Shown in pieces: positions 2,879-47,200 of a DNA stretch of 51,243 bases. Position 1 is the first letter of the stretch; each line of letters starts with the position of its first letter. The position numbers and the translations under genes are program-made. Below the pieces are notes generated by a model. The model worked only from the letters and a program-made list of their open reading frames with translations, was not told the origin of the DNA and ran no database searches. The stretch covers positions 1 to 51,243 of the IMG/VR virus record IMGVR_UViG_3300025853_000130; one strand, 5' to 3'. The DNA is from a virus.

Positions 2879-3340
2879 ATGACTCCGATGGACAAGGCTT
2901 GGTTGTTTTTGAAAATGCCGGTGTATGAAACAAATGTACCCGGTATTCGTTTTGTCACTCAAGGAGATAATGAAGATTGGACACAAGATAAAAGTCTTCA
3001 TGGGGGATTACCGGGTGTTTGGATAAAAGAAGGAAAAACATTTGATTCAACTGAAAGAGAAATACCGCATGAAAGTGATTTAGAAGATTTTGCGGAAATA
3101 ACCAACATGACTCCAAATCAATTCTTACAAGAAACAGGAACAGATGAAATGGTTGAAGATGATTACTACAAAAACCTCATGCAAAGAGCAATGCAAGGAG
3201 AAGATATGCGTTTTGTAATACCAAGAGCAGACTATGTATTTACCGATAGTCCTGTGGGTCATGATGGTCGCCATCGTATGAGAGCATTACAGCAATTAGG
3301 CTACGGAGATACTTCAGTACCTGTCTTTAGGCAATGGTAA
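2879..3340 (+). CDS. EPMD-tagged protein with ParB/sulfiredoxin-like C-terminus
   Basis: The 153-residue product begins directly with a tag variant, MTPMDKAWLFLK (1-12). Its C-terminus holds VGHDGRHRMRALQQLGYGD then Val-Pro-Val, the Gly-x-His-Arg-x-x-Ala signature of ParB-like nuclease/sulfiredoxin-fold domains. The region between is acidic. The ParB fold is known to bind nucleotides or cut DNA, but activity here is inferred from one motif. It lies 2 bp after the polyprotein-like gene and is probably translated with it. It marks the end of this module block; a noncoding repeat region follows. Confidence 0.7.
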   Translation: MTPMDKAWLFLKMPVYETNVPGIRFVTQGDNEDWTQDKSLHGGLPGVWIKEGKTFDSTEREIPHESDLEDFAEITNMTPNQFLQETGTDEMVEDDYYKNLMQRAMQGEDMRFVIPRADYVFTDSPVGHDGRHRMRALQQLGYGDTSVPVFRQW

Positions 3341-3347
3341 GCACTCA

Positions 3348-3378
3348 CTTTATTCACTTTATTCAAAACTTTATTCAC
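3348..3378 (+). repeat. Left arm of 31-bp perfect inverted repeat
   Basis: It matches the reverse complement of 3486-3516 at every base by eye. It contains three CTTTATTCA 9-mers with a four-base AAA-type spacer between the second and third. Confidence 0.85.
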
Positions 3379-3485
3379 CAAAATGACCAAAGCAAATATT
3401 CATTATTCATTATACCTCTATTATTTATTATATATTATTTTAAGACACTATGAATAAAGTGAATAAAGTAGGAATAGTCATTTGA

Positions 3486-3516
3486 GTGAATAAAGTTTTG
3501 AATAAAGTGAATAAAG
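3486..3516 (-). repeat. Right arm of 31-bp perfect inverted repeat
   Basis: It is the reverse complement of 3348-3378, with 107 bp between arms. A further tandem pair of the same 9-mer lies between the arms at 3451-3468. Confidence 0.85.
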
Positions 3517-3560
3517 CGAAACAGTTATAATGACCATATTTTTGACCAAGAGTGAGGACA

Positions 3561-4130
3561 ATGCAACCGAATAGTAACACAACCGAGGCTGAAATACGAC
3601 TAATGGGGCTAATTCTTGCCCAATCTGCACTTGTAGGATTGGCAATAGGTTTCTTTGATGCAGATATGTGGCTAAACAGTAATGACCCCGTAGTGAACGG
3701 GTTCACTTACGCTATGGCGGCATTTTTTGTACAAGGTATAGCGTATTATTTCTTCAAAATGTTCTTTGAACAAAACATGCAAGAAAAAGTACGCCTTCAA
3801 AACATTGAGAGAGAACGCAGTTTTCGATACCGTAACATGCAAAATCAATTTGATGCACGCAGGTCGGAAATGGAAATAAGAGTGCAAGAAGCACAACTTG
3901 AAGCAGAACTTAGATGGATGGAGTTAAATCCCGGTAAAATGCCGCCGTCTTGGGGTGTTATAGATGCACCATCCGCTTTTAAAGAAGAAAACAAACTTAT
4001 TGAAAATCCGCCAAAACATACTGCTGAAATTAAACAACCAATCAATTTAGGTTTGGGTATTGCAGATGAAGATGTTACATTAAAAAAAGATGGAACACCA
4101 GATAAGCGTTTTCAAAAGAAAGAAGAGTGA
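3561..4130 (+). CDS. Two-pass membrane protein with coiled coil, first gene of GTPase operon
   Basis: ATG 3561 is chosen because GTGAGG lies just upstream; a GTG at 3552 is in frame. The 189-residue product has two hydrophobic segments, about 14-32 (LMGLILAQSALVGLAIGFF) and 48-68 (FTYAMAAFFVQGIAYYFFKMF). A charged Glu/Arg-rich stretch at 70-125 is likely coiled coil, and the tail is hydrophilic and Lys-rich. The topology suggests a membrane anchor with a long cytoplasmic rod. It heads a run of closely spaced genes that includes the GTPase at 4395, so it may be the GTPase's membrane partner; this is inference from neighbourhood. No family recognised. Confidence 0.75.
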   Translation: MQPNSNTTEAEIRLMGLILAQSALVGLAIGFFDADMWLNSNDPVVNGFTYAMAAFFVQGIAYYFFKMFFEQNMQEKVRLQNIERERSFRYRNMQNQFDARRSEMEIRVQEAQLEAELRWMELNPGKMPPSWGVIDAPSAFKEENKLIENPPKHTAEIKQPINLGLGIADEDVTLKKDGTPDKRFQKKEE

Positions 4131-4141
4131 GGTGATACCTC
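4129..4141 (+). promoter_or_regulatory. Shine-Dalgarno inside a small hairpin before the gene at 4142
   Basis: GAGGTGATACCTC folds as GAGGU-GAU-ACCUC, with the ribosome-binding site in the stem and the ATG immediately after it. The identical 13-mer stands in the same place before the gene at 29343. The stem is only five pairs with a three-base loop, so its effect could be small. Confidence 0.5.
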
Positions 4142-4402
4142 ATGGGTCGAATCTTTAAAACTCCCGAAGATGATTCGACTGAGGCTACGCTACGAGCATT
4201 GCATACGCAAAACACACTTGATAATTATTACGAAAAAGGTATTGGATGGATAAGAACAATTCTTTTTACAATTTTAGGTATGATGTTTGTGAGTTTATGG
4301 GAAAACATAACAGGTGAATCGTTATGGGTAAATACAGTGGAATGGTTTTGGAACAAAGTCGAAGATTTTGGAAATTGGGTATTGGGGTGGTTAGATGGTT
4401 GA
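4142..4402 (+). CDS. Small single-pass membrane protein with Trp-rich tail
   Basis: The 86-residue product has a hydrophilic N-terminus, one transmembrane segment at about 34-53 (IGWIRTILFTILGMMFVSLW) and a Trp-rich amphipathic C-terminus (six Trp between 62 and 83). GAGGTGAT precedes the ATG. It overlaps the GTPase gene by 8 bp, so the two are translationally coupled. Role unknown; pairing with the GTPase at a membrane is the simplest idea. Confidence 0.75.
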   Translation: MGRIFKTPEDDSTEATLRALHTQNTLDNYYEKGIGWIRTILFTILGMMFVSLWENITGESLWVNTVEWFWNKVEDFGNWVLGWLDG

Positions 4403-5111
4403 ACCCGTTGGCTCGGCGGTTGTCGGTGCGGCAATATGGGGTCAAACCCTATACAACTCATGGAAGCCACGCAAGGTCGGTATTTACGGTGCGGGATTAG
4501 TTGGTAAAACTACACTTGACCGTTTTATGACAACACCCGGTGAAATGGAAGACATACCGTTAGAAGAGCGTACTGAACATATGCGAATTCTCGGTAGGTA
4601 TTTACTTCCAAAACCTACACGAAAGCGTATTTCATGGAAAGGTCAAAAGCGTGTTGTATTTTCATCCGATATAGGTGGTCAAGAGCGTTTTTGGAATCTA
4701 TGGATTGATGACATGGTAACTCGACAAGCCGAAGCAATTGTGTATATATTTGACGATAGAGTGTTGAAAGGCGGCGAAGAAGCATTACAACAAATTGCTG
4801 GTTTCAAATATTTAGTGGATGCTATCGTACATAGACAATACCGATATAGAAATTTAAAAAGCAGATGGAAAGGTAAAAAATATATTCCAAAGTTAATTAT
4901 GATTGTAGCAAACAAAGCGGATAGGTTTTTTGATGAAACTGCCGCAATGTTGTGGGGGCAAGACAGAATAGGAGAACACAAAATATTTGATGCTTTTCGT
5001 GATGATTTAATTCGTTTGCAAAAAGCAGGTGTACCAACAAGAAAATCATTCATGGCAACGAGAATAGGTTGGAATGTGGAAAATACAATGGTAAATTTAC
5101 TTACAGCATAG
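4395..5111 (+). CDS. Arf/Rab-like small GTPase
   Basis: The 238-residue product has the full set of Ras-superfamily motifs: P-loop GAGLVGKTT (32-40), switch II DIGGQERFW (92-100) with the catalytic-type Gln96, and the guanine-specificity motif NKAD (173-176). A late stretch ATRIGWNVENT (221-231) is placed like the G5/last helix. The DxGGQ form is typical of Arf-like proteins, while QERF recalls Rab. Known members switch between GDP and GTP states to control membrane or polarity processes. No lipidation site is seen; N-terminal residues 1-25 are mildly hydrophobic. The gene sits between small membrane proteins and an AbrB-like gene with overlapping or short junctions. A small GTPase of this kind in a tailed virus is unexpected. 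Biochemical role here is unknown. Confidence 0.85.
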   Translation: MVEPVGSAVVGAAIWGQTLYNSWKPRKVGIYGAGLVGKTTLDRFMTTPGEMEDIPLEERTEHMRILGRYLLPKPTRKRISWKGQKRVVFSSDIGGQERFWNLWIDDMVTRQAEAIVYIFDDRVLKGGEEALQQIAGFKYLVDAIVHRQYRYRNLKSRWKGKKYIPKLIMIVANKADRFFDETAAMLWGQDRIGEHKIFDAFRDDLIRLQKAGVPTRKSFMATRIGWNVENTMVNLLTA

Positions 5112-5119
5112 GTGATAAT

Positions 5120-5290
5120 ATGACAAAAACAACAGTAGCATCAGTAGGAAAAGATACAAAAAGTGTAAGAACTGTTATTCCAATGTGGATAGCAGAATTT
5201 CTAAATCTTAAAAAAGGAACAAAAATAGAATGGAGTATTGTACAAACCAGCAATGGTTTTACAGCACAAATAAAAGGTGATTCACAATGA
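5120..5290 (+). CDS. AbrB/SpoVT-like small DNA-binding protein
   Basis: GGTGAT at 5111-5116 is a strong ribosome-binding site for ATG 5120, giving 56 residues. The sequence VRTVIPMWIAEFLNLKKGTK followed by alternating hydrophobic strands fits a swapped-hairpin AbrB/SpoVT domain (the classical form is R-x-T-I-P-x-x-h-R-x-x-L-x-h-x-x-G-D). Such proteins are dimeric DNA-binding regulators or antitoxins. Here it could regulate its own operon or the repeats upstream at 3348-3516. Fold assignment is by motif only. Confidence 0.65.
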   Translation: MTKTTVASVGKDTKSVRTVIPMWIAEFLNLKKGTKIEWSIVQTSNGFTAQIKGDSQ

Positions 5291-6216
5291 TGAATTTTTA
5301 TCGAGAACCACAGTATCGTTTATCGGATGCAAATGAAGCACATTTGTACGCACTAAGCCAACAAGGAAATGCAGGGTTAAGTCATGCCGCTTTGTTAGAG
5401 CAAGCCACCGCTCAACAGTCTATGCAAAACATTGCAAATCAAGCAAACTTAGAAGTTCCAAAAGTCAATTTTTATCCAAGTCGCCATCCCGACCCAAACA
5501 AAGCAAGAAAAAAAGACATTAAACAAGCATACCGATTGCTCACTCCATCAAAAAGAAATTTGTTAAATCCTCTTCGATTGTTTTTTGGTCGTAAATATCG
5601 CTACGATAAACAATCAAGTATGTGCGTTGTTGATGGTTGCGATTGTGCTACACTCATTCAATATGATAATCTCTATGCCAAAATATGCGATGAAGATACA
5701 GGTAATACACTTTGGGAATTGTATTGGCAAAACCCTGTTACGGGGCAAGCCGAAGCATTTGTAGCAAAAGAAAAAGTTACGAATGGTCGAAAAATGAAAG
5801 GTACATATTGCCCCGAACACATGCATTTGTATCATCTTCTTTGCAAGTGGGAAGCAGAAGAAGATAAAATTAGAGAGGCTAATCCAAAAAGACTTCGTGA
5901 CCAAGTGAAAAAAGGAGTCAGCGTAGTTACTGTGCCGGTTTCTTCATTTAAGAAAAAAGACCCAACACCCGAAATGTTGCAAAAATATGAACCGTTCCTT
6001 GATGAGTTGATTCGAGATTCAAAGAAAACCAATGGAATTACAATTACTCATTATACAAATCCAATGACTAATCGCAATGACATCACTACAATTACATTTG
6101 ATTTGAGGATTTTTGAGCATGAATTATTTATGATGAACCAACCAACTGCCTCATTTCAAGATATGATAAATAACCAAAATGCTCTTGAACAAGAAATGTT
6201 TGGGGGTATCGAGTAA
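5287..6216 (+). CDS. Cys/His-rich protein of unknown function in GTPase operon
   Basis: The 309-residue product overlaps the AbrB-like gene by four bases (ATGA). The centre carries candidate metal ligands C113, C118, C120, C134, C175, H178, H180, H183 and C186, with the phrase YCPEHMHLYHLLC. This suggests one or two zinc sites, or an unusual metal site. The N-terminal 60 residues are Gln/Ala-rich and helical, and the C-terminal 50 residues are acidic and Asn/Gln-rich. No family recognised. The tight coupling with the GTPase genes suggests a common process. Confidence 0.7.
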   Translation: MMNFYREPQYRLSDANEAHLYALSQQGNAGLSHAALLEQATAQQSMQNIANQANLEVPKVNFYPSRHPDPNKARKKDIKQAYRLLTPSKRNLLNPLRLFFGRKYRYDKQSSMCVVDGCDCATLIQYDNLYAKICDEDTGNTLWELYWQNPVTGQAEAFVAKEKVTNGRKMKGTYCPEHMHLYHLLCKWEAEEDKIREANPKRLRDQVKKGVSVVTVPVSSFKKKDPTPEMLQKYEPFLDELIRDSKKTNGITITHYTNPMTNRNDITTITFDLRIFEHELFMMNQPTASFQDMINNQNALEQEMFGGIE

Positions 6217-6217
6217 G

Positions 6218-6853
6218 ATGTTAGGTTTGAGTAGCACACAATATACAAATAGCAATGGTGCGTTAAATTTAGGTGCATCAATGGGAAATTCTCCTATGCA
6301 AATGCAAAATCCGTGGGCAACACAACAACCAATGATGCAAGGTGGCACAGGGGCGTTCATGAACGGTATGACGGGAGGCCAAGCAAGTCAATGGGGTCAG
6401 CAACCAATTACTCCACCATCCGATATGGAATTGCAAATCATGTTGCTTCGTGGTATAGTGCCTATTGACAGGTTTATTGCAAGTAATCAAATGGGCTTAA
6501 TGATTGATATGTTATCTTCACTTATTTCGTTTTCAGTTCTTGAAATATTGCGAAATGCTACATTCAACATTGACGAAGATAATGGAACAATGACACTTGA
6601 TGTATCAAAATTACCACAACACTTGCAAACCATTAGCAGTGAAAATGTAAAATCTCATTTTTCATCTCTTCAAAGCACCGCACAACAAAACATTAATGCG
6701 GCTGAACAAAACCAACAACAATTAGCATATTTTGCACAACAATCAATGATGGGTGGTATGCTACATTCAGCACTTGCTGATGAGGGAATGATGCAAAAAG
6801 TTGGAGGCGGTGTTGGTTCATTTGCTCGTAGTATTATAACGGGAGGAAGATAA
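6218..6853 (+). CDS. Gln/Met/Gly-rich protein of unknown function
   Basis: Start ATG 6218 follows the previous stop by one base; a longer frame from TTG/ATG 6179 would overlap the previous gene. The 211-residue product has a low-complexity N-terminus (Met, Gln, Gly, Asn), a central folded-looking part around DMELQIMLLRGIVPIDRFIA and MIDMLSSLISFSVLEILRNA, and a Gln-rich then Gly-rich C-terminus. Composition resembles the - strand gene at 494 (both have Gln-Met runs). Function unknown. Confidence 0.7.
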   Translation: MLGLSSTQYTNSNGALNLGASMGNSPMQMQNPWATQQPMMQGGTGAFMNGMTGGQASQWGQQPITPPSDMELQIMLLRGIVPIDRFIASNQMGLMIDMLSSLISFSVLEILRNATFNIDEDNGTMTLDVSKLPQHLQTISSENVKSHFSSLQSTAQQNINAAEQNQQQLAYFAQQSMMGGMLHSALADEGMMQKVGGGVGSFARSIITGGR

Positions 6854-6854
6854 T

Positions 6855-7097
6855 ATGGATAAATACCTTCCATCTTCATTTGCCGCAACAACACTTGATG
6901 TTTTAAACCCAAATCGAAGCGTGATTATTGACATGATTATGGTACAAATTATTTCATTCATTGTGGCTCTTACAATGATTCTCTTGTTTAAAGGAGATAC
7001 ACTTGGCTCGGAAAAAGCATCATACCTTGTCATTGGAATCTTCGCCAGCACTATTTTCTTGAGTGCTGTCTATTCCCGCATCACGAGAGGGGCTTGA
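6855..7097 (+). CDS. Small two-pass membrane protein
   Basis: The 80-residue product starts one base after the previous stop. It has two transmembrane segments at about 23-46 (VIIDMIMVQIISFIVALTMI) and 56-73 (ASYLVIGIFASTIFLSAVYS). A holin could look like this, but a membrane partner of the GTPase operon is as likely because it closes that operon. Its last 78 bp are overlapped by the tail of the - strand frame at 7020. Confidence 0.7.
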   Translation: MDKYLPSSFAATTLDVLNPNRSVIIDMIMVQIISFIVALTMILLFKGDTLGSEKASYLVIGIFASTIFLSAVYSRITRGA

Positions 7098-7331
7098 CCA
7101 CTTTTCTATTGGGCATTTAGAATTCAATAGTGATACTTTTGTTTTGATAAAACAGCCACACAAATCACATCTTGTACCGCCGTAAGGACAAGTTGAACAA
7201 ATTCTTAAACGCTCGGCTACAATGTGTTTTGGAGCAAAACGACCATGACAAACATCGGATGCGGCGTTTGTTAGGCTTTGAAGCGTTTCTTTTGTGAGGG
7301 GTATTTTGGCTATTCGTTTTCGCCCCCACAT
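7020..7331 (-). CDS. Small zinc-ribbon protein on the - strand
   Basis: The - strand frame codes RICSTCPYGG, then CDLCGCFIKTK, then KCPIEKW. This Cys pattern (CxxCPY...CxxCGCxIxxK...CPxxKW) is a recurring small phage protein type with two Cys pairs. ATG 7331 (MWGRKRIAK) is chosen; an upstream in-frame ATG at 7358 is possible. The conserved part ends at the KW, near 7100; the remaining 25 or so residues run antisense into the membrane protein gene and look like unselected read-through. It is the only - strand gene in the late region, so it must have its own promoter. Function unknown; metal binding is inferred. Confidence 0.7.
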   Translation of the reverse strand: MWGRKRIAKIPLTKETLQSLTNAASDVCHGRFAPKHIVAERLRICSTCPYGGTRCDLCGCFIKTKVSLLNSKCPIEKWSSPSRDAGIDSTQENSAGEDSNDKV

Positions 7332-7391
7332 GGTATGTTGGAAGCACCTTTCATCCATAATTGTTTTGAACTTGAACTCTATAGAACGCTC

Positions 7392-8069
7392 ATGGCGGCG
7401 GAGCGTATAGTCAAGCGTTCCTGTGCTTTTTGCATTTCCGAAGAGCGTGATTCATTAGAAGAAGAGATGCTTCAAGGCCACATTTCTGCTCGTCAATTGG
7501 ATAAAGATATGGGGTGGAGGCAGAACACCGCAGACCGTCATTATCGAAATCATATGGGTGAATATTACGAAGCGGCAAATGAATCGTGTCCTGTGTGTAC
7601 TACACCAATGCGTGCTGAGTATGAAACCGCTTATTTCTCAAATGAAATTACATCCGATGAAATAGCAAATCAATTAGAGATAAAAGAAACTGTTGTATAT
7701 CGTCATATGAAGAGTCATTTTCAACCACTTGTCCAAAAATCTGCGGCTATGGAAGTGGCACTTGTTGCGGGTCAAGAAATTGCTTTACTCCGTTCAAATG
7801 CTGAGAAATTAAATCACAAACTAAGTGAACTACTTGATGAAGGAACTGTACATGAAGATGGGTTTGTACGAGATGCTGTCGCTCTTCATAAAGAAGTACG
7901 AGAAACTGTCAAAGACTTGTTGCGTTTCCAAGACCAATGGGGTGCAAAGAGTGATGGGCAACAAGTCAATCAAACATTTAACATTCTTCAAGTTGAGTTG
8001 GGTAAAGAAAGCCCCGAAACTTGGATGCGTATAAAACGCCAATTGCAAGAAAACATGGGGGTTGAATAA
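7392..8069 (+). CDS. DNA-binding protein with two tandem zinc-HTH repeats; terminase small-subunit candidate
   Basis: ATG 7392 is chosen over a longer frame from 7278 because the extra residues lie antisense to the - strand zinc gene and look unselected. The 225-residue product contains two aligned units of 55 residues: C11-x2-C14...H50-x3-H54 (HYRNH) and C66-x2-C69...H105-x3-H109 (HMKSH), each with 35 residues between the Cys and His pairs and an HTH-like centre (ISARQLDKDMGW, TSDEIANQLEIKETVVYRH). The second half is helical. Tandem DNA-binding modules upstream of a terminase large subunit suit a DNA-recognition subunit of the packaging motor, but three genes lie between. A transcription regulator is the alternative. 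Confidence 0.65.
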   Translation: MAAERIVKRSCAFCISEERDSLEEEMLQGHISARQLDKDMGWRQNTADRHYRNHMGEYYEAANESCPVCTTPMRAEYETAYFSNEITSDEIANQLEIKETVVYRHMKSHFQPLVQKSAAMEVALVAGQEIALLRSNAEKLNHKLSELLDEGTVHEDGFVRDAVALHKEVRETVKDLLRFQDQWGAKSDGQQVNQTFNILQVELGKESPETWMRIKRQLQENMGVE

Positions 8070-9718
8070 TGGTTATGGGAAGAGGTTCGGACACTCGCCT
8101 GTATAACCCTCGTAGTGAATCGGATAAGATGTATTCATCTGCAAATGAAGATGAAACAAAATACAATCCCGCTTCACCCGAATACAATGAGCAAAAGCGT
8201 GAAGAAAAGAAACTCAAAGAAGAAGAAAAGAAAGCAAATAAGGGTAAAATAAAACACATTAAAATTCGTGCTTCACAAGGATTGCGTGGTGAAGAAAGCC
8301 CTGTTGCTATGAATGATTCAAACAAAAGAGATGAAGAGCGTGAAATTGGACTTACAGGTGGACCGCCCGGTAGTCGAGGTAATTTACTTGACCTTGCTAC
8401 AGGTGCTAAAACAGGCACAGGTTCAGCAATGACAGGACCATTACCAATCGCAATGAGCGAGCCGATGGATGATGCTTGGAGTACATTGTTGAAGGAAGAA
8501 CCTACTGTACACCCCGGAGAAAATCAATACAAATACAGATATAATATGCCAAATCGTGATGATGTTCACCCCGAATGGTATAATTGGATTCAAGAATTGA
8601 TAGATAAACCGTGGGAATACGAAGGAATTGGGGATGATTTTACACAACCCGATATAGACCATTTAGCAGGTGCTACATCTCGTGAAGATTTTTTTGATAG
8701 ATTATATGATTTACATAATTTTATTGTTGATGATGCACGACCCCCGTTTGATGATATAGAAGGTGAATATCGTGATTTTACTGATGTACCGTTTAATGAA
8801 AAAACAGGTTTCACTATGAGCGAGCCGATGGATGATGCTTGGAGTAATTTGCTCAAAATAGAAACACCACGCACAATTGCACGACGCAGAAAACAAGAAG
8901 CCCGTCAAGAATTTCGACCATCAACAGGACAATTCAAGCGACCTCCCGGCGGCATGGACCCGGTAGGGGCAACAATGCGACGGTTTAAAGCCCGTATGCG
9001 TGGTATCAAAGGTGGTAAGAAAACAGGTTTGATGTTGCCTCACTTAGCCGTTGAAATGAGCCACAGGGGTATTGCGACTAAACAACCGATGAGTAAAGAC
9101 CCACAACGATACCGAGCCTATCAAGGTCAATCCGAGGCAAGAAAAATTCTTGGTAATGTGCGAACTACATTTTCACCACACGCTCGATTTGCACAACGAG
9201 GCAGTTATGCTGGTCCAACAGGAGCGGGTCGTCTTGGTGGATTGTTGCCACAACAAAAGGGAATGATGCGACAACCATCACTTCGACCACTACGAGTAAG
9301 AGCACCACGACCTCCACAACCACCAATGATGCCACCAATGATGCCACCACAATTACCACCTGTTCAATCATCTGTACCAAGTATGCCAGCACCACCATCA
9401 AGTATTATGATGAGTGAAGATAGAACTCAAAGCGACATTTTGAAAGCAAAAAATTTCGCAAGACATATGGAAATGCTTAATTTAATGCGTCGGCTTATTG
9501 CGGCAAAAGAAAGAGAAGCGAAATTAAAGAAAGCGATGCAAGGTGGAGGCTCGGCGTTTGAAAACGGTCATGTTCCCGACCACCCCGCAGGTGTTCAAAA
9601 CAATGAAGATGAAGATGAAAAGAATGATGGACCAACACAAAATCTTGAAACAAATTCAAGCAGAATGGGTCTTGACCCTGCTGGTATTCTTATTTCTCGT
9701 AGGGGGCATATGGGATGA
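8069..9718 (+). CDS. Basic, Pro/Met-rich protein with a cassette bounded by two EPMD tags
   Basis: ATG 8069 overlaps the previous stop (TAATG). The 549-residue product begins with a charged Lys/Glu-rich helix region (40-70). Tag copies MSEPMDDAWSTLLK (129-142) and MSEPMDDAWSNLLK (250-263) are separated by exactly 121 codons. The 107-residue acidic segment between them (Trp, Tyr and Asp-rich) differs strongly from the basic, Arg/Gly/Pro-rich sequence on both sides. After residue 263 the protein is basic, with a PP-MM-PP low-complexity stretch near 415-430 and a final acidic part. The layout looks like one tagged cargo inserted into an older basic protein. A minor head or DNA-associated protein is possible from its place before the terminase; not established. 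Confidence 0.7.
   Translation: MVMGRGSDTRLYNPRSESDKMYSSANEDETKYNPASPEYNEQKREEKKLKEEEKKANKGKIKHIKIRASQGLRGEESPVAMNDSNKRDEEREIGLTGGPPGSRGNLLDLATGAKTGTGSAMTGPLPIAMSEPMDDAWSTLLKEEPTVHPGENQYKYRYNMPNRDDVHPEWYNWIQELIDKPWEYEGIGDDFTQPDIDHLAGATSREDFFDRLYDLHNFIVDDARPPFDDIEGEYRDFTDVPFNEKTGFTMSEPMDDAWSNLLKIETPRTIARRRKQEARQEFRPSTGQFKRPPGGMDPVGATMRRFKARMRGIKGGKKTGLMLPHLAVEMSHRGIATKQPMSKDPQRYRAYQGQSEARKILGNVRTTFSPHARFAQRGSYAGPTGAGRLGGLLPQQKGMMRQPSLRPLRVRAPRPPQPPMMPPMMPPQLPPVQSSVPSMPAPPSSIMMSEDRTQSDILKAKNFARHMEMLNLMRRLIAAKEREAKLKKAMQGGGSAFENGHVPDHPAGVQNNEDEDEKNDGPTQNLETNSSRMGLDPAGILISRRGHMG
8453..8483 (+). repeat. 31-bp direct repeat, copy 1 (EPMD tag)
   Basis: Identical by eye to 8816-8846 over 31 bases, beginning ATGAGCGAGCCGATGGATGA. 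It encodes the start of the tag. Spacing to copy 2 is 363 bp (121 codons), so recombination between copies would delete the cassette in frame. Confidence 0.85.
8816..8846 (+). repeat. 31-bp direct repeat, copy 2 (EPMD tag)
   Basis: Second copy of the repeat at 8453-8483. Identity stops shortly after, where the two tags diverge in their Leu-Leu-Lys codons, so this is not a long duplication. Confidence 0.85.
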
Positions 9719-15688: not shown

Positions 15689-17002
15689 GTGGTCAATGGA
15701 GTGGTCAATATGTGGGGGAGTATGCTTATCGGAGATGAATACGACACCCCACTTTCTTTCGTTGATGAATTATCGAATGTTGTCATAAAATCAATATCTC
15801 AGCACCCTTTCTTTGAACCCGATAAAATTCCAATAGAAAAACACAAAGTTGTTCAAAAAATAAACAAAGAATATTCTTTTCCTTTAAACGGTGATGGTTG
15901 GTTAGAATCATATTATGGAAAAGATTCGGATTCAATTATTCGTATGTTTAAAAGAATGCGAAGACACGATAAAGTGAATAAAGCAGAATATGATACAATT
16001 ATTCAAGATATTCGTAAAATAAAAGCGTTGGAAGTTGATACGACGCTTAAATCACTTTCATGGGGTGAAGGGTTTATTGATACCATAAAACAATTAGGTA
16101 TTGATAATCGAGATTTAAAATCACTTCGTAAGTTTGGTGAAAGTCGAAGTACAAGTTTGCAAAAGGCTTGCCAACAATTTTTGAAAGCCTCAACTGTTCT
16201 TCAAGACTTAACTCAAAAGGAAGATTGGAATGATGATGATAAAATCCAATATGTTACGGCAATGGAAATGAGAAAAGATGCTCGTAAAGTATGGAAAAAC
16301 GCTCTTCATCAAATAGATAATCTCACAAAAGCAGAAAAAGATGCATTGTATTTTGCCTCAACTGAATTAGAAAAAGAAGATAATTTATCAGCAAGGGAAT
16401 TATTTCGTAGGGGTAAAGATGAGTTTGCTAAATCAATGACGGCAAACAAAATGAGTTCGCTACTCAATATGTATGGTGAAGAAGTGAATGTGTACAAAGG
16501 AACACAAACAGGCACTTTCATTAAAATGGGAAATAGTGGTTTTATTATTAAAGATATTTGGGCTTATACTGCTGGATTTATTGATGCTGATGGTAGTATT
16601 TTTATTTCCGAGCGTGGCGACCCTCGTGTTACTATTGTAGCGAGTGGCGATGGAGGTAAAGCCCATTGTGAAGAATTGCAAAAAATGCTTGGTTGTGGTC
16701 GTCTTGTTACTGATACAAAATTAGCAAAAAATACAGTTAAACCTGTTCATCGGCTTATTTTTTCATCAAAAGATATGATTCGTGATTTACTCAAAGGTGT
16801 TTTGCCTCATTTAAAATTAAAATCGTTGCAAGCAAAAGCAGTAATGAGTTTTATTGATGAAAAAGATTCCATGAGAAAAAATGAATTATATCAACTTGTA
16901 ACTTTCAATAATTGGAAAGATGATAAAAACAAAGCCGAATCACTCTTAAACAAGTGGGGCTTAGACGCTGATACGATAGGTGGATATGCGGAGGGATTAT
17001 GA
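15689..17002 (+). CDS. Helical protein with C-terminal LAGLIDADG endonuclease-like domain
   Basis: The frame opens at GTG 15689; ATG 15710 is an alternative. A 17-codon frame (15685-15738) with its own GGTTAA site overlaps the start and may modulate it. Residues 1-285 are mostly helical and charged, of no known family. From residue 289, IWAYTAGFIDADGSIFI is a clear LAGLIDADG motif with the two Asp. It is followed by strand-loop-helix elements and KLKSLQAKA near 390, the usual layout of a single-motif homing endonuclease domain. No intein splice blocks are seen. It overlaps the portal gene by four bases. Either a homing endonuclease fused to a host-virus gene or a domesticated DNA-binding domain in a packaging protein. 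Confidence 0.75.
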   Translation: MVNGVVNMWGSMLIGDEYDTPLSFVDELSNVVIKSISQHPFFEPDKIPIEKHKVVQKINKEYSFPLNGDGWLESYYGKDSDSIIRMFKRMRRHDKVNKAEYDTIIQDIRKIKALEVDTTLKSLSWGEGFIDTIKQLGIDNRDLKSLRKFGESRSTSLQKACQQFLKASTVLQDLTQKEDWNDDDKIQYVTAMEMRKDARKVWKNALHQIDNLTKAEKDALYFASTELEKEDNLSARELFRRGKDEFAKSMTANKMSSLLNMYGEEVNVYKGTQTGTFIKMGNSGFIIKDIWAYTAGFIDADGSIFISERGDPRVTIVASGDGGKAHCEELQKMLGCGRLVTDTKLAKNTVKPVHRLIFSSKDMIRDLLKGVLPHLKLKSLQAKAVMSFIDEKDSMRKNELYQLVTFNNWKDDKNKAESLLNKWGLDADTIGGYAEGL

Positions 17003-38206: not shown

Positions 38207-38215
38207 GGTGATACA

Positions 38216-41200
38216 ATGGTTGCAATCGGAAGAAGCAGTAACGCCATGTTTTTTGATGGTGTAAGTGATTCCGTCATTATTCCTCAAGGGCGTTTTACAA
38301 GTACAGGTGTTGAAAACAATAATGGTCATAAGTTAATGACAAAAACACTACAAGGAAGCGGTGATATTGCTTCAATTAACGATAAAAGCATGAGCGATTT
38401 TATCATTGAAACTTGGGTTGTACCCGATTGCGGGGGCGTTGTAGCACATCGTGATGGTCAATTTACTCTTGAATTTGGTACTGTTGATACACCCGGCCCT
38501 GCTGTATTTACTTTGTATATTGAATCAACACAAGGTCCATCGTATGTACGACTTGCAACTGCGTATGATGAAACAACTCGATGGAATGGAATAATTTATC
38601 CTCAACAAAATCACGGCGGAATACACGACTCATACAACCGTTATGACACAGGTACATACGGTGAGGCTACAAATCTTAATTTTAAGAACAGACCACTTTA
38701 TCATATTGTTGCAGGTATCAATAAAAGAAAAGTATTTCTTGCAGTAAATGGTGAAATTGTATCACAACAAGATATTGCCGAAGGAGTGCGTATGGCACGC
38801 TCCACAAGCCCTGTATATCTCGGTGGGAAGGGCGGAGAGTTTCGTGGGGCTATAGAATCAATTCACTTTTCTAATGAATTTGATGAAAACATGCTCCAAC
38901 CGAGTATGCCCGTAAAAGGCGAAACAACATCAGCACTATTTCGATTTGAAGAGCCTCTTGACATAGTGGAAAACACCTACGATTTTACAGCGTATGGGTC
39001 TGCTGGTGGAACAACTATTACGGTTTCAACAACCATTGCACAATCTCTTATTGAGCGTTTAACGGGCAAATCTTATGACTCAGCCAATCCAACAACAAAC
39101 TTTCTCGCATCGCCTTACAGTATGGGTAATTACAAAGTTGTGGATTATTATACTACACCCGCTACTCCAACAACTTTAGCAATTGCTCACACACCATACA
39201 ATTTGCTTATCAATCCGGGTGCTATCAATCGCAACACACAAAAACCAAATCAAAAACCTCCCGAAAGAGTTCGATTACACAGTATCAACGGTAGTACAGG
39301 CGTTATTACGGTTTCAAGCATACATGTTGATTTTGTTAATGGAACGGGTGGATTAAGAGGGGTATTGCACCCAAGAACAACAGATGTTGATAATTACTTT
39401 GTTGTCGTAGGTGCAGATTTACTTATTGATAATGGTACAGGTAAGCCATACCAACCGCCTCACTACGGCACTCAAATATTTGACAAAACAGGACAAATGA
39501 TTATTGATGAAAGTATTCGCACAAATCACGGTTTGGTGTATTCATCACGCATGGCTACAACGACAAACGACCCTAACAATCCGTTTGCAGTAGTATGGGA
39601 TTCTTCTATTGATGAATTATTTCAAGTCGGGCATAGCGGAAGGCATACTTTTTCTCACATCGTAGGCCATGAATACATGAGAAAATATCCAAAACCAACA
39701 GAACTTACAATTGACCAACAAGTTGATGGTTCTGCTGATATTGTACAAATGGCTTATGATTCAAACACTCGCAACTTAGATGAAATGTTTGTGATGAATT
39801 CACTGATTGATTTTTATGCTGAAACTGCTGATATGCCAATCAATCGCATTGAAAATTCATCAAGCGTTGCATCAATCAAGCATAATGGACTTCCAACAAG
39901 TGTAAGAGAACTTATTGCAATCGGTGGAAGTGGTTTTAATTACTCACCATTTATGTTGAAAGGGCCTGTTCCCGAAGCGGGAAATATCAATGAAGATTCA
40001 AGGTTGTATCACCTTGTACCCGAAAATGAAAGTCGCATTGCGTTGCTTCATGTACCCGATTTGAAAACAAGTCACAACCTTGCACCGTTTGTTGAAATAC
40101 ATTACAATGCTATTGACTTAACAGGAGCAAGCATGGGTCTTTCAGTACCTATGCTAATGGTCGAAAAAACTGTACCTGCTGGCTCTTTTGACTTAGGTGG
40201 AGGTACAACTGTCCTTGATGTCATCACATCCGACCTTGCTAACACAACTTTGTATTCTGCTGGTGGTGTCATATATTTAGCAAACGCAGTAAGCGGTTAC
40301 GCAAGTCTAATGCAAGAATCACACTCCTTGCTTGGTGATAATACAGGAGGCCAAGACAACGATGTTGAACTTGATTACAGTCGAACCCCCGCTCTTTACA
40401 CACCTGTAAGTGATGTCAATGCCGACCCTGCTTCGCCGCCAAAAGCAATCAAGCGTTCCCATAACACAAACTCTCACGAGTCGGTGTATCACCGAGTTTG
40501 TATAGAAGCACTATCAAGCAAAATAAACAATACATACACTACATCGGGTCAAAAAATAATACTTAACCCTAATGAAGAAAAAACAGGTACAGGTGTATTT
40601 GACATTGGGCCTACATCATCTTCTTCAAGAAACTTTGAAATGTTTAACATTATTGACAACATAAACATTACAGACGAAGCGGGTGTTTTTGGGAAAATTT
40701 TCGTACAGCCTTCAAATAAATTAAGGAGTAATCAACTTTCAAACATACGGGTTTTGGGCGACGGCGATGAGCCAAACATCGCAAGCATTCTGTTTTTGAT
40801 GAGCAGGGCAAGGGTACGGGGTGTAGGGAAACAAGAAAACCCCGAATCAAACACAAGCACCGTAGTCGTTACAGCCACAGGCATTGCCGACAGTTTCGTA
40901 AATGAGAATGTATCAGTCGTAGGCAGTGGTTCGCCCGACTCTCACATTGTAAAAGAAATAGAGCCAAACTCACCTGTTGTAACAGTCACACTTGGCGGAG
41001 CAGGGCAGGGGGCAATCAACACCAAGCCCACTTTCGACCCAAGCCCGTTGATGCGATTACCCGGCTCGACAAGGCGTAACTGCGTAACGCAAGCCGTAGG
41101 CGTAACAGCCACATCACTTAGCGTGAAACCATTGAACAACGGTAGCCCCGACCTCAAATCTTGGGGTACAATTTGTTTTCCTAAAGTTGGCCGTATCTAT

Positions 41201-44200
41201 CTTGAAGATGGGTCAAGTGCAGAATACAGCGATAAAATTGGAGCAGGTTTCTTCTTCGACAACACTGATGCAATCAAAGATAGAAAATACTTAGATGCTA
41301 ACGGTGTAGCCTATTCCACATTTTTTGATTGGTGCAACGCCACGACTATCATCAATCAATCGTCAAGCGGCGATTATCCAACTTCTGTTTTCATATCGAA
41401 TGATGGCGATTTTGGTAATGAAAACATGGCTCAAGATGGTAGTACCGTCAATGACCGAATGTTTCAAGCGATGGACACCGTATCACATGATTACCAACTT
41501 GGCACGCAGTTCGCAAGCACTCGTGCTATGGTTGAGATACCTGTATTTCCGCAACAATTTTTCGACCATACAGAAGAGGGTATTTTTCCGGGTCCAGATA
41601 ACAGTATGAAATTGCATGTTGATGCTACATACACCGCTCATACTTGGAACGCTTCGCCTGTAGGAAGGCGTGCTGATGATAAAGAGGCGGCGGATAAATT
41701 AGTCAATTCAGCCTATACTTACATCAAAGAGAACAAAAATTACATACAATCCGCAACTATTACTCGTGTCGAATATGTAAGTGGAAGTAATGAGTGGCGT
41801 GTTTATGTGTCACATCCATCCATGTTTCCTTCTGCTTTGACAGGTTCAACATACGGAAATATGACACTATTTAGAAAATTAGTAAGAGTATTTTTAGATT
41901 CGGGTGATTGGACTGTATATGACAATGACCCTACAACAGATGGTTACATTGCTATACCCGATGAATCTGGAAGTAGTACATATCATGGTGGCATGAGTGC
42001 AGATTTTTTGATTAACGCTACAGTTGGGGCAAAAATACATATGGGAGTCGGTATTCTAAACGAAACACTTGTTCCTTTATCATCGGATTCGGGTACGCCT
42101 TCTTCGGATTATGAGGCTCGCTCACCGTTTTACTATGATACGGCTGATGTTAAAACACAAGGCGGAAATCTTGACTACGGCCTTCGACAATATGTAAGTG
42201 CTGTTGAATTCAAAGCAGGGCCATTAGTCAATCCTCACGCACCAAGAACAGTAACAGGTCGTGCTAAATCTAAGATTGTTGATGCTCCTACCGATAGTAG
42301 TCGAACCGTCACGCTTGTACTTGAAGATGGCTCATTGTTCCCCGATGTACCCCATTCAAGAGATAGTTCTTACAACATAGTGTATGAGGAAGGCGACCTT
42401 GTATTTGTCGGTGAAATACTTCTCGATACGCCTATTGAAGTGTATTATTTGGGCAACGAATATGGTAATGATGCTGATGAAAATACAGTAAAAGTGTATA
42501 TTCCAACAGGAACATCTTATACGATTAACGATTTTATTGGAGCAGAATTTGTTCTCAAGCGTGCTGGTCATGCCCTTAATGTCATTTCCGACCCTGCCAA
42601 TGCTTCTGCTAACGAAAAAAGCGTAGCAACATTCCGACCTTCCGCTACAGAAGATTGGACATATACATCATCACCCGGTGCCGGTACTACGACTACATTA
42701 ACAATATCACCTGCTACCGCTAACCGTTTAGCCCATGCAAATACAATTGGACTGAATATACGAAAAGGCGATAAAATATTTGTTGATACAGGTAGTGCGA
42801 TAAATTATGTCGGTGAAGTATCTGCTTTAGAATCGGATATTATTACAGGTGGTAATCATGAAATTACTCTCACTGCTAACAATGTATCAGCGATTACAAG
42901 TGGACAACATATACGAATAGGAGCAGGTAGTGTTGTACAAGACGATACAGAAGCATTACTCAACCGTTCATGGTATTATCCATACGCTCAAGGTGGATTG
43001 CGAAATGGTGATACTGTATGGATGAACATGACACTCAATAATCCTCATGCAGTTGAGGGGTTGTTTGCAAAAAGTCGTGGCGTGTTTAACGAAGCACATG
43101 TTTGGAAAGGATTCAATGGAGGGCGGGGTACACTTACTCAACGACCAAGAGATTCTATACCACTTGAGAATTTTCTCATTGGTAATTCTTGTCTTGAAAC
43201 AGCACAAAATTTTGCACAACATGTCAATAAAACGGTGGAAATGAATTACGAATCAATGGGTCTTGATGCTTCTCAAGCCCCAACTGTAGCCTACATAGAC
43301 CCGTATCTTTCAACCGATGGTCATGCTCGTGTTCTTTTGTACGATGTAGCACATGACCGTGAGTTCATTGCATTCCATGACTTGCATATGCAAGTGCAAT
43401 CGAGTGCTGAAACACCGGGTGTTGGGTATGGTCGTTACATTACTTACGATGGTGGCACAACCAAACTTGACAAATTTTTAATCGGTACAAATGGTGGTGC
43501 TCCACATTATTTCACAACTCAAATAGATGTAGCAAATGGTTTTCCAACAGAAAACAAATTTATGCGTGCCACTCAACAATCAAAGTTTATTGAAAGTGCG
43601 TATGCACATAATATCGCTAATACAATATCAAATGACCTTAGAGATTATTCAACAAGTTCTCAAACAAAATACACAACGAGTAATCCCTTTACGGGTTACA
43701 ATCCTCATTTGATGGGTAAAGGACATGGACACTTTGTTCACACAGGGTTGTTCCATGAAGAAACTTCATACACACATACGATAGGAGATAGTGTACTACC
43801 ACGAGTACAACCTGCCGTAGCGTCGCTATATTGGGCAAATCAATCACATAAATTAACGAGAAAAGAAAACATAGGTAATCCTTTGAGTAAAGCATTAAAG
43901 AGAGAGCGATTAAAAATCAGTGGTGCTACAATAAAAGACTCAAGCACACTATTCGATACACCCGATGGTACTCGTGTTATTTCAGCGTTTCTTTGTTTGA
44001 AAGGTAAAAGAACTGTCGAACTTGATTTAACTGACCACGAAGAATCAAGACTCAATCATTTAGACCATTGGACTCAAATGGACTTTGTAAGAAGAATGAC
44101 GGTTGATTTGGGTGAGGTAGGAGTCAAAGAAGGTGTTACTGATATTGAAGCGGCGGCAAGAGAAATTGTTCGTCTTATCAATCAAGGTGGTGCTCCAAAT

Positions 44201-47200
44201 GGTCGCACACATGCTCGTCGCCCATCTCAACAATATCCCGGTGAAAGTGAAAGACTCGACCTTACAAGAATCGGTGTTCGTCAAGACATTGCAGACGAAA
44301 ACAAAGACCCAACATCATCTCATATCAATGCTGATTTTGCCGCTACGGGTTCAACGCACGACCCCGCACCATTTTGGTACACTGATATAGCATTTGATAC
44401 ACACGATAGAGGTAGCCACATGGGTTACATTAGAGCACATATTGGCCGTGTTGTTGAAGATATTAACGGGGTTGAGGGTTATTCCATTATTATTCACTCC
44501 ACTATTCCCGGTGCTTCGGGTCGTAATTTCTGCGTTTGGCTTGATAACAGTAAAGGTCAATCGGAATATCAACCTCAATTTTTGATTGGACATGGTGGCC
44601 GATTTCGTAACTTTTGGGCTTTCCAAGATGAAGTGCTTGGAGAAAATATGCACCCCGCACCTCTCCCTTTAAACAAACACGGCAGACCGTTTGCACCAAT
44701 AACAACTCTTCGTGAGTATGTTTTGCAAGAAAATCCCGATGAAGATTTCACAAGTAATCACGATGTCGGTGTAAGAAGAGATGATGTATCAAATCCAAAG
44801 CAAAGAAATATTTCTGCTCACATTGGCGGCATATCAAACAACACCGTGAACGATGAATCGTTTGAAACGCAAAGCCCATCTGTATCACTTGTAAAAGGAT
44901 TGAGAGCAGGTAAGCGTGCTACTGCACGAATAAACTTTGGTGGATTGGTCGCAAGCGGTGTACCCGGTTTTTCACCCGTTGCTGGCAAATACGGTATGGG
45001 AAGAAAAGGAAGTACAGAATTCGATAAAAGATATGGTGAAGCAATTAAGAAAGGCGATGTAACTCCAACCGCACTAACATCATATAGTGGTCATGTGAAA
45101 TCGGGTGAAGTGGTTGAAGATGCCATAGGTGCTACACCTTTGTACGGGTTTAGATTTACCGACCATCGAGGGCAAGGTTACGGTGTTCGATATATTTACA
45201 GACAAATGGATGTCAATTTTGCTAATGAATTGACAACCATTCCATCAACTTTAGACGAAGAAGTGTGCATATTTTTTGATGACAAAGATGTGGCACAAGG
45301 TGGTTTTACTATTGGACAACATATGCTTGGATTTGGAGATGCTACAGGCCGTTTAGACATTGGTAATTTGATGAATGAAAATTCATGGCGTGGCAATCAA
45401 TGGAACGGTGTATATGCACCAGATAGCGGAAATGATTGTTCGATAAGTTGGGATGCTTCCGAATCCACCTTAACAGTTCAATTAGGTGCTCCATTTGATA
45501 CAGGAAGTTTTTTTACAAGACACCCCGATATTTTAGGATATTTAGGTTTCCCTAAAAATAACGGAGTTATACAAATTACAGACCCGTTTAATAATGCTTC
45601 TCCCGCACCTGTATTATACGGTTCAGTTGGTAATGTTGTTTCTTATGAAGGAAGAAGCCAAAATAATGTTACAGGCACACACATCTTCTATGGAGTACAA
45701 GGAACTCCATTCACGGTTTCACATACTCTCGCAAGCCTTGGTGCTACAACATTAACTGCGGGAACGGGTAGTCAAACTATCTTCGGGGGTATAGACCGCA
45801 TTATCAAAGCCCTTATTTCTCCAAGAATAAATTGGACAACTTTAGTTACTGATGAATTGATTGCGGCAGTAACGGCTGAGGCAATTAATCTTGCTAATCC
45901 AAATGTCGAGGAAGGTGTATCATTTGATTGTCGAAGTATGTACGCCGCAGATGGTCGAACATTTGGAGAATGGGGTGTATCGGCAGACGCTATCAAGATA
46001 AGAGCACATAATACTGAGCGTAAGGCAAGACCTTTATCCAAAATGTTTCGTGCTACATTGCACAAAGATTTAGGCATTGAAGCCGCTCACACAGAATTTG
46101 GCATTTATATAAATTTAGACACTAAAAATAATAAATTTTCAACTTCTCTTTTGACTCCTTTGGAATACAGACCATCAACTGATGCTAAAATAGAAAATAG
46201 TTACAAAATAGATTGCGGTTATGTACCCAAAACTGTATTACAAATTCAAACAATAGGGCGTGGTTATCACACAAATACACCTACGCCAATTCTTGTTGAT
46301 TCATACAATGACCCTGTAAATACTACAAAGTGGAAAAATAATCTCACAGGATATAATTTTACGAAAACAATGGGCGACCACATTTTACCATCAATTGATA
46401 ATCGAATGTTTATTTTTGATTCATATGCTCACGGCACTGAAACATTTACCATATTGGGAACAAACAGGTTACATCAAATGTTTGTTTTGGCTGGACAAGA
46501 AAGTGCTACATTTGATGGTGCAACAAAATTACTTTCATTTGGTGAATCGGTACTTATGTGGCATGGTAATGGCACTGAAAAATATGCAATTATGACTTCA
46601 AAACAGGGAAGTACATCAGACACGGATGCTATTGTGTTGGATAGTAAAGCAAACGATGAATGGGATGATGAATTTGGTTCATATAATGGTAATGAAGATG
46701 GGTTGTTAATGACTCATGCTGATAAAATGTTTAGTGGATTTAGAGTGTATGGAAGCATAGATAGCGAACCAATTACATATTTCAAGGGAGGTCGAGATAG
46801 TATAGACCATAGCGTTCCTCTTTACTTCGGCGGTGGGTTTAGTGGTGTTGTCCTCGATGTCAATGATGGCTCACAAAACGATTACTCATCATTTTATACA
46901 CACCCGTATTCGACAGGCCCGACAGGAACGGCAGGTATTCAAAACGCCAATGAAATTAGCACATCATTTGCTATGCTTGATTGTAATGCGTTGCTTGCAT
47001 TCTTCCCCGGAACTGCTTTGCTCAATCAACATCGTGGCTCAATCAACCCACCTGTCAATAATCAAGACAATATTTTGTCGCACGATTTAGATGTAGGCTC
47101 GTACTCTCGCAGAAGTGATACCCCTGCTCATGTTGTCGCTCGATATACTGCGGGTATTGTACAACAACGACCTTCGCCTCTCATTGTGCGTATGCCACAT

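Follow-up and report, generated by a model that had tools for sequence, protein, structure and literature searches.

A membrane-linked small GTPase module in the virion-gene cluster of tailed viruses that resemble magroviruses of marine archaea

Small GTPases with membrane partners organize membranes in eukaryotes and in some archaea and bacteria. In haloarchaea, a small GTPase with neighbor genes drives vesicle formation: the archaeal vesiculating GTPase system ArvA/ArvB/ArvC (OapA/B/C) of Haloferax volcanii comprises a GTPase with an N-terminal helix and partner genes in one operon, including one for a Zn-finger protein, although the Arv partners are not transmembrane (TM) proteins and the system is cellular (PMC10927574). 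The Arf/Arl family of eukaryotes, with its Asgard ArfR relatives, and the MglA-type GTPases of bacteria and archaea provide further points of comparison. Among viruses, mimivirus encodes a Rab GTPase proposed to act in membrane biogenesis (PDB 5xc5; PMC4569851), but this is a Rab homolog from a eukaryotic giant virus and is not known as a fixed cassette with membrane genes. The exit mechanism of archaeal tailed viruses is essentially unknown, and a 2016 study stated that no archaeal virus gene resembles known phage exit genes (PMC4810249).

Here, we analyzed a window of 51,243 nucleotides comprising positions 1 to 51,243 of the IMG/VR virus record IMGVR_UViG_3300025853_000130. An initial annotation made from the sequence alone had described an Arf/Rab-like GTPase with intact G1, DxGGQ, and NKxD motifs, encoded in an operon with three membrane proteins and an AbrB-like gene. 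That observation is confirmed by our analysis, as all of the parts named are present. The GTPase (238 aa) carries GIYGAGLVGKTT at G1, SDIGGQ at G3, ANKAD at G4, and ATR at G5, and its gene is overlapped by 8 nt by that of the Trp-rich membrane protein (86 aa). The second TM stretch of the upstream membrane protein is the weaker one, being rich in Tyr and Gln, so a simple hydropathy scan counts only one. We refer to the genes of the block as g2 to g9, to the group of viruses that includes the window as clade A, and to a second, divergent group as clade B.

Table 1. Features of the GTPase block and its flanks, in window coordinates, with supporting observations.
Feature	Position	Strand	Description	Supporting observations
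Intergenic	3345..3519		AT-rich stretch upstream of the module with a 43-nt inverted repeat built of TGAATAAAG iterations; possible promoter/operator region	Repeat search; sequence not conserved in relatives
g2	3561..4130	+	Two-pass membrane protein with a conserved charged helical stalk (RYRxMQxxFDxRRxDMELRMQEAQLExELRWME); alternative GTG start at 3552	80/81 loci; counterpart of 127-139 aa in clade B by order and make-up
g3	4142..4402	+	Single-TM Trp-rich protein with an invariant N-terminal stretch (F..D...E.TLR..H..N..D..YE)	80/81 loci; gap to the GTPase gene <=20 nt in 80/80
g4	4395..5111	+	Ras-superfamily small GTPase; N-terminal Gly/Ala-rich helix, then G domain	Motifs; AlphaFold2 model; VIA-align Z 15.7 to Arl8b, 15.4 to ARL6, 15.3 to Asgard ArfR1, 15.2 to Arf1
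g5	5120..5290	+	AbrB/MazE-like 56-aa protein, accessory	Pfam MazE E 0.079, below cut-off; 59/81 loci; no hit in 49 subclade-C loci; not in the clade B gene order
g6	5287..6216	+	Soluble protein with a Zn-knuckle-type C-x2-4-C ... GTYC-x2-H site	38/38 TerL-sampled loci; clade B counterpart, hmmsearch E 1.4e-4
g7	6218..6853	+	Helical protein with a hydrophobic C-terminal end	38/38 TerL-sampled loci; clade B counterpart, hmmsearch E 2.5e-4
g8	6855..7097	+	Two-TM 80-aa protein	Two TM in 77/80 homologs; 38/38 TerL-sampled loci
g9	7278..8069	+	HTH protein, probable terminase small subunit (function inferred from position); marks the start of the packaging genes	PHROG DNA-binding E 0.0016; 38/38 TerL-sampled loci

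To determine whether the GTPase motifs are maintained, which had been set beforehand as a test of the initial reading together with the linkage of the neighboring genes, we examined 57 clade A and 24 clade B proteins. The G1 P-loop (G[IV]YGxxx[VTA]GKTT) is present in both sets, the D and second G of DxGG are invariant, and G4 reads ANKAD in 57/57 clade A and ANKxD in 24/24 clade B proteins. In contrast, the catalytic Gln implied by the DxGGQ motif is not conserved, the position being occupied by Q in 24, E in 27, D in 5, and H in 1 of the 57 clade A proteins and by E in 18 and Q in 6 of clade B. The AlphaFold2 model (pLDDT 78, pTM 0.79) has a small-GTPase fold, and 999 of 1000 Foldseek-ranked chains gave VIA Z scores of 8 or more. 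Together, these data place the protein in the Ras-like small GTPase superfamily.

We next asked how the viral protein compares with individual subfamilies. The highest structural matches of the predicted fold are Arf/Arl proteins, including Arf1 on membrane tubules (Z 15.2), with Z of 15-16 over ≈162 residues but only 15-20% identity, and the mimivirus Rab also appears among the matches (Z 13.1). As in Arf, an N-terminal helix is predicted and G3 is of the DxGG type, and the viral profile aligns to Asgard Arf over 125 columns (hhalign E 1.2e-7). The helix is predicted at residues 4-23 but is only weakly hydrophobic, with a low hydrophobic moment and low pLDDT at its very start, and its likeness to the amphipathic helix before the G domain of Arf is uncertain. 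The viral protein differs from Arf in an insert around residues 60-78 and in its variable catalytic Gln, and the Pfam Arf cut-off (PF00025) is not reached by any member: 1 of 57 gave E 0.046, and the window protein has no match. With ArvA, the P-loop and switch I stretch are alike (IYG...GKTTL...GE..IP.E.RT; hhalign over 36-65 columns, E about 1.6e-5). ArvA membership was nevertheless rejected, because eight Asgard ArvA-type proteins encoded beside OapB have DMPG at G3 where the viral proteins have DxGG (DIGG[QE]), and a Pfam scan of the eight block proteins shows neither ArvB (DUF2073/OapB) nor ArvC (DUF2072). ArvA also has an extra helix region. The profile also aligns over 146 columns with one MglA-like Asgard GTPase (hhalign E 6e-8), with which it shares a ..RT in the switch-I region, but the MglA-like G3 is of the TTPGQ type and the same Pfam scan found no roadblock (MglB) partner in the block. 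Because several Asgard families score alike (E 1e-7 to 5e-10), we make no assignment to Arf, Rag, or MglA, and membership in Arf, Rab, MglA, or ArvA is not shown. Sequence searches of the PDB gave nothing significant, with no solved relative of g2 or g6, and the predicted structure of g6 (pLDDT 66) was too poor for a fold search.

To understand whether the block is a peculiarity of one virus, we sampled related loci in several ways. Module order is kept in 80/81 loci sampled by the GTPase. When sampling by terminase (TerL), 37 of 38 related contigs carry the GTPase at the same place, and the 38th carries it just past the stored flank. The GTPase is the most conserved member of the block, near portal/TerL level (75% against 73% and 80%). 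Clade B, in which the GTPase is only ≈30% identical yet homologous (hhalign E 1.2e-32 between the clades), keeps the order two-TM stalk protein, single-TM protein, GTPase, Zn-knuckle protein, and helical protein directly behind the protease and major capsid protein (MCP) genes in 50/50 MCP-sampled loci, and order is likewise kept in 47/49 loci of a subclade C. In clade A, the module instead lies directly before the terminase genes. The cassette therefore stays together at two different sites in the virion-gene cluster, indicating that selection acts on the unit. Given motifs that are invariant or nearly so and a block order kept in hundreds of loci, chance is excluded. The AbrB-like gene, by contrast, does not belong to the conserved core.

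A cellular origin was considered and rejected: the only hits in genome collections were small contigs binned into Maricaulis, Cytophagaceae, and Asgard MAGs. These carry the viral block and were treated as mis-binned virus contigs, although one of these bins led us to clade B. Annotated phage records gave no match for either GTPase clade. The viruses themselves look like Magrovirales (Aoguangviridae, Apasviridae; PMC10768690, PMC12999244), with which they share PolB (in 11/12 long contigs), RFC small subunit-like and thermosome-like chaperonin proteins (in the record that contains the first part of the window), two divergent gene clusters, genomes of ≈100 kb, and tailed-virus head genes (TerL, portal, protease) with an MCP nearest to Druskaviridae (37% to the HVTV-1 MCP, E 1e-52). 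This placement rests on gene content and not on a phylogeny with the reference records ON649702, OR863078, and PP497039, and no GTPase is mentioned in the published profiles of these families. In the druskavirid HVTV-1, considered as a possible cultured carrier, we found the protease and MCP but not the module genes. We found no paper combining magroviruses with a GTPase, in a literature search that did not cover the founding magrovirus paper or the 2025 Poseidoniales virus paper.

The interpretation offered in the initial annotation is thus only partly supported. A motif-intact small GTPase with an Arf-like predicted fold is indeed tightly linked to membrane proteins in a tailed virus, and both the conservation of its motifs and the linkage of its neighbors held in relatives. 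The set had been called unusual for a tailed virus, however, whereas within its family it is a core module next to the virion genes of at least two deep clades. The proposed functions (a change in host membrane or cell polarity, exit, or superinfection exclusion) remain inferences; the late-gene position and near-universal presence favor an assembly or exit role over superinfection exclusion, but only as inference.

Our preferred reading, held tentatively, is that the block is a membrane-anchored GTP-switch module forming a core part of the late (virion) gene cluster of a large group of marine archaeal tailed viruses. Such a switch would remodel or mark the host membrane, most likely for virion exit or membrane-linked assembly. 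The sequences themselves establish a Ras-superfamily GTPase tightly linked in gene order to g2 and g3 and followed by g6 and g7, with g8 in clade A; what follows is inferred, without support from experiment, expression timing, or complex prediction. In this view, g2 and g3 would sit in the host cytoplasmic membrane with their conserved N-terminal or stalk parts in the cytoplasm, the GTPase would be recruited to them in the GTP state through its N-terminal helix and switch regions, and g6 and g7 would be regulators or effectors. Late in infection, the cycle would drive local membrane deformation or opening where virions gather, giving release of progeny in a host without a murein wall. The module would work like the ArvA or Arf systems but as a separate viral family. 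The weakly hydrophobic helix, the nonconserved catalytic Gln, and the absence of ArvB/ArvC weigh against this reading, and the absence of the module from the related HVTV-1 indicates that it is not a general need of this MCP lineage. In its boldest form, which the evidence leaves possible but which we consider doubtful, a hallmark module of a major oceanic archaeal virus lineage would be a dedicated Arf-like GTPase machine that deforms or opens the host membrane for virion release, a GTP-driven exit system in prokaryotic tailed viruses independent of holins, endolysins, and ESCRT. A GTPase with membrane partners that is fixed in the virion-gene cluster of an abundant ocean virus group gives a concrete, testable candidate for exit and places Ras/Arf-type membrane switches as a core gene in prokaryotic viruses, which is relevant to how widely such switches are used outside eukaryotes.

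A late position is equally compatible with a role in virion assembly. The best surviving alternative, although less likely, is that the GTPase marks a membrane site or pole, as MglA does, where heads are assembled or packaged, with g2 and g3 as membrane receptors and no membrane deformation involved. The location of the cassette beside the capsid or terminase genes and the alignment with the MglA-like Asgard protein are consistent with this idea, but the block contains no MglB-type partner, tailed viruses generally assemble heads without such a device, and HVTV-1 lacks it. Less likely still, g2, g3, g7, and g8 could be packaged proteins that form a membrane channel at genome delivery, the GTPase being a regulator or a structural nucleotide-binding part. 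The module does lie inside the structural gene cluster in both clades, and small membrane proteins with helical stalks resemble parts ejected by some phages; however, conserved GTPase motifs imply cycling, for which a virion has no GTP supply, and a search of PHROGs showed no similarity to known ejection proteins.

Of similarly low likelihood is host takeover or superinfection exclusion, as the initial annotation suggested, in which the module would interfere with a host GTPase or membrane pathway or close the envelope to further infection. Membrane proteins combined with a eukaryote-like switch would fit, but exclusion genes are usually patchy and fast-changing, whereas this set is in essentially every member and the GTPase is among the slower-evolving genes, and a PADLOC search for antiphage defense returned no match. 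Finally, a GTPase-fold protein without a signaling role, such as a structural or RNA/ribosome-linked nucleotide-binding factor that merely sits next to membrane genes, would accord with the nonconserved catalytic Gln and the distance from every named subfamily but is the least likely reading, as gene order with the two membrane genes survives between clades of ≈30% identity and at two different sites.

To characterize the organization of the block surrounding the viral GTPase, we first examined the record itself, which is 51,243 bases long and whose first 29 kb overlap an 82.8-kb contig (L002/L293, G001) with identical sequences for the genes compared. Downstream of an AT-rich gap, the genes designated g2 to g9 run on the + strand, with the GTPase encoded by g4, and these are followed further downstream by the genes for the large terminase, portal, prohead protease, and major capsid protein (MCP). 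Transmembrane (TM) segments were assigned by a simple hydropathy scan. The initial annotation described an Arf/Rab-like GTPase in an operon with three membrane proteins and an AbrB-like gene, and this description is correct in every part for the window. Its interpretation, that such a set could alter the host membrane or drive a virus-specific membrane process such as exit, is partly supported, in that the GTPase is conserved and linked to its membrane-protein neighbors while its function remains inferred. The gap that precedes the module contains an array of TGAATAAAG iterations forming an inverted repeat, the sequence of which is private to this virus among the relatives examined.

Coordinates and features of the GTPase block and of other genes and elements discussed in the text
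Feature	Position	Strand	Description
AT-rich gap	3341-3551		Gap upstream of the module
Repeat array	3345-3519		43-nt, 93% inverted repeat
g2	3561-4130	+	Two-pass stalk protein
g3	4142-4402	+	Single-pass Trp-rich protein
g4	4395-5111	+	GTPase
g5	5120-5290	+	AbrB/MazE-like 56-aa protein
g6	5287-6216	+	Zn-knuckle protein
g7	6218-6853	+	Helical protein
g8	6855-7097	+	Two-pass protein
g9		+	Probable terminase small subunit
HNH endonuclease-like gene	15689-16999	+	Between the terminase and portal genes
Long open frame	38207-51241	+	Behind the tail genes; runs off the window
Short repeated motif	1296, 1722, 2202, 2607, 2885, 8462, 8825	+	In three different proteins (546-2876, 2879-3340, 8069-9718)
Chaperonin gene, locus L170	5445-6950		Thermosome-like (group II)
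~850-aa protein gene, clade B contig L172	6871-9399		Directly before the prohead protease
HVTV-1 gp124, locus L449	14406-14738		One-TM protein with a helical tail

To understand how the GTPase compares to known small GTPases, we aligned 57 orthologues from the group that includes the window (clade A). The P-loop, the ..RT of switch I, the DxGG of G3, and the ANKAD motif are invariant or nearly so across these sequences. The glutamine that follows DxGG, however, is replaced by glutamate in about half of them, so the intact DxGGQ motif recorded in the initial annotation holds for the window but not for the family. An AlphaFold2 model built with the 57-sequence alignment predicts a small-GTPase fold after an N-terminal helix at residues 4 to 23 (pLDDT 78, pTM 0.79), although confidence is low at the P-loop and switch I. 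Structural comparison of this model with VIA-align ranked Arl8b (Z 15.7), ARL6 (15.4), an Asgard ArfR1 (15.3), and membrane-bound Arf1 (15.2) first, with Rab and Ras structures following at Z of about 13. By sequence, the protein is far from all named families: the window protein matches Pfam Roc at E 0.008, below the curated cut-off, and no PDB sequence is significant. Profile comparison with Asgard proteins gave similar scores for Arf-like, Rag-like, and MglA-like proteins. We therefore describe it as a divergent viral family of the Ras superfamily with a predicted Arf-like fold.

We next sought to determine whether the block is conserved in related viruses. GTPase-based scanning of IMG/VR identified 219 confirmed clade A relatives and 89 relatives in a second group, clade B. 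In 81 clade A loci, the block order is the same wherever the contig is long enough. Because sampling by the GTPase is biased, we also sampled by the large terminase; of 38 loci with 9.5 kb upstream, the GTPase is present in 37, and g6 to g9 are present in all 38. The one exception, locus L352, is a truncated view of the contig of locus L108, which has the GTPase just beyond the flank sampled. A 56%-identical subclade shows the order g2-g3-GTPase-g6-g7-g8-g9 in 47 of 49 loci and never g5. Together, these data show that the block is a core module of these viruses.

Clade B was recognized through two contigs inside a "Maricaulis" MAG that encode GTPases about 30% identical to that of the window, and hhalign between the two clade profiles gives E 1.2e-32. 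Virus contigs were found binned into Asgard, Maricaulis, and Cytophagaceae MAGs (contigs L162, L163, L164, L171, and L172), and the Maricaulis bin IN14 holds at least three different viruses of this kind. In the loci of clade B, and in 50 of 50 loci sampled by the capsid gene with enough flank, the order is protease, MCP, and small genes, followed by g2-like, g3-like, GTPase, g6-like, and g7-like genes. The g6 and g7 counterparts are recognizable by profile (E 1.4e-4 and 2.5e-4, respectively), and g6 keeps a C-x2-4-C and GTYC-x2-H site in both clades, whereas the g2 and g3 counterparts are judged by order, length, and TM/stalk make-up rather than by significant sequence match. The same cassette thus sits before the terminase genes in clade A and behind the MCP in clade B, and a unit that keeps its order at two different sites is good evidence that its genes work together. 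Clade B viruses also carry, directly before the prohead protease in the head-gene cluster in 68 of 80 loci, an ~850-aa protein that, judged from its sequence alone, we take for an ATP-dependent DNA ligase.

To investigate which viruses carry the module, we examined the remaining gene content. The same genome encodes PolB, an RFC small-subunit-like clamp loader, a thermosome-like (archaeal group II) chaperonin, and a PD-(D/E)XK nuclease in a cluster of opposite direction. The chaperonin scores above the NCBIfam thermosome_beta cut-off, and PolB is present in 11 of 12 long relatives. The nearest annotated MCPs for both clades are those of haloarchaeal Druskaviridae, at 37% and 27%. This is the profile of magroviruses of marine group II archaea (PMC10768690, PMC12999244), and Druskaviridae have been placed among marine archaeal viruses (PMC8651126); our placement rests on gene content, and the host is inferred. 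The cultured druskavirid HVTV-1 has no recognizable module gene. It does encode a one-TM protein with a helical tail (gp124) four genes behind its MCP, about where clade B has g2, but no sequence similarity was found.

Because conserved soluble parts of g2 (the stalk) and g3 (the N terminus) lie next to a switch GTPase, these proteins may serve as membrane receptors or anchors for it. The g3-GTPase junction is ≤20 nt in 80 of 80 loci, suggesting translational coupling, and the position among virion genes suggests late expression. The nearest functional parallel is ArvA, whose deletion in Haloferax abolishes RNA-associated vesicles and which also has a Zn-finger partner (PMC10927574). ArvA-type proteins that we obtained beside OapB in Asgard genomes share the P-loop/switch I stretch but have DMPG at G3, and no ArvB/ArvC homologue is found in the viral block. 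The viral system may work like ArvA but is not a member. Since a 2016 study states that no archaeal virus gene resembles phage exit genes (PMC4810249), an exit or membrane-assembly role is the most economical reading. Whereas the gene content, motifs, and conserved order are shown by the sequences, the membrane anchoring, coupling, late expression, and any role in exit or assembly are inferred, and we hold this reading only tentatively, with a positioning/assembly role as its main rival.

Examination of the rest of the window revealed further features. The gene between those for the terminase and portal resembles HNH endonucleases (PHROG E 1e-8) and possibly encodes a homing endonuclease. Behind the tail genes, a single open frame continues for more than 4345 codons without a stop, occupying about a quarter of the window, and its first 1261 residues have no Pfam match. 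In addition, a short motif, mostly [SG]EPM[DEN]xA[FWL]xxLLK (with the variant TPMDKAWLFLK at the fifth of its seven positions), repeats on the + strand only; in clade A loci it has 116 hits on the + strand against 2 on the − strand, with none in clade B, and it could be a targeting or maturation tag.
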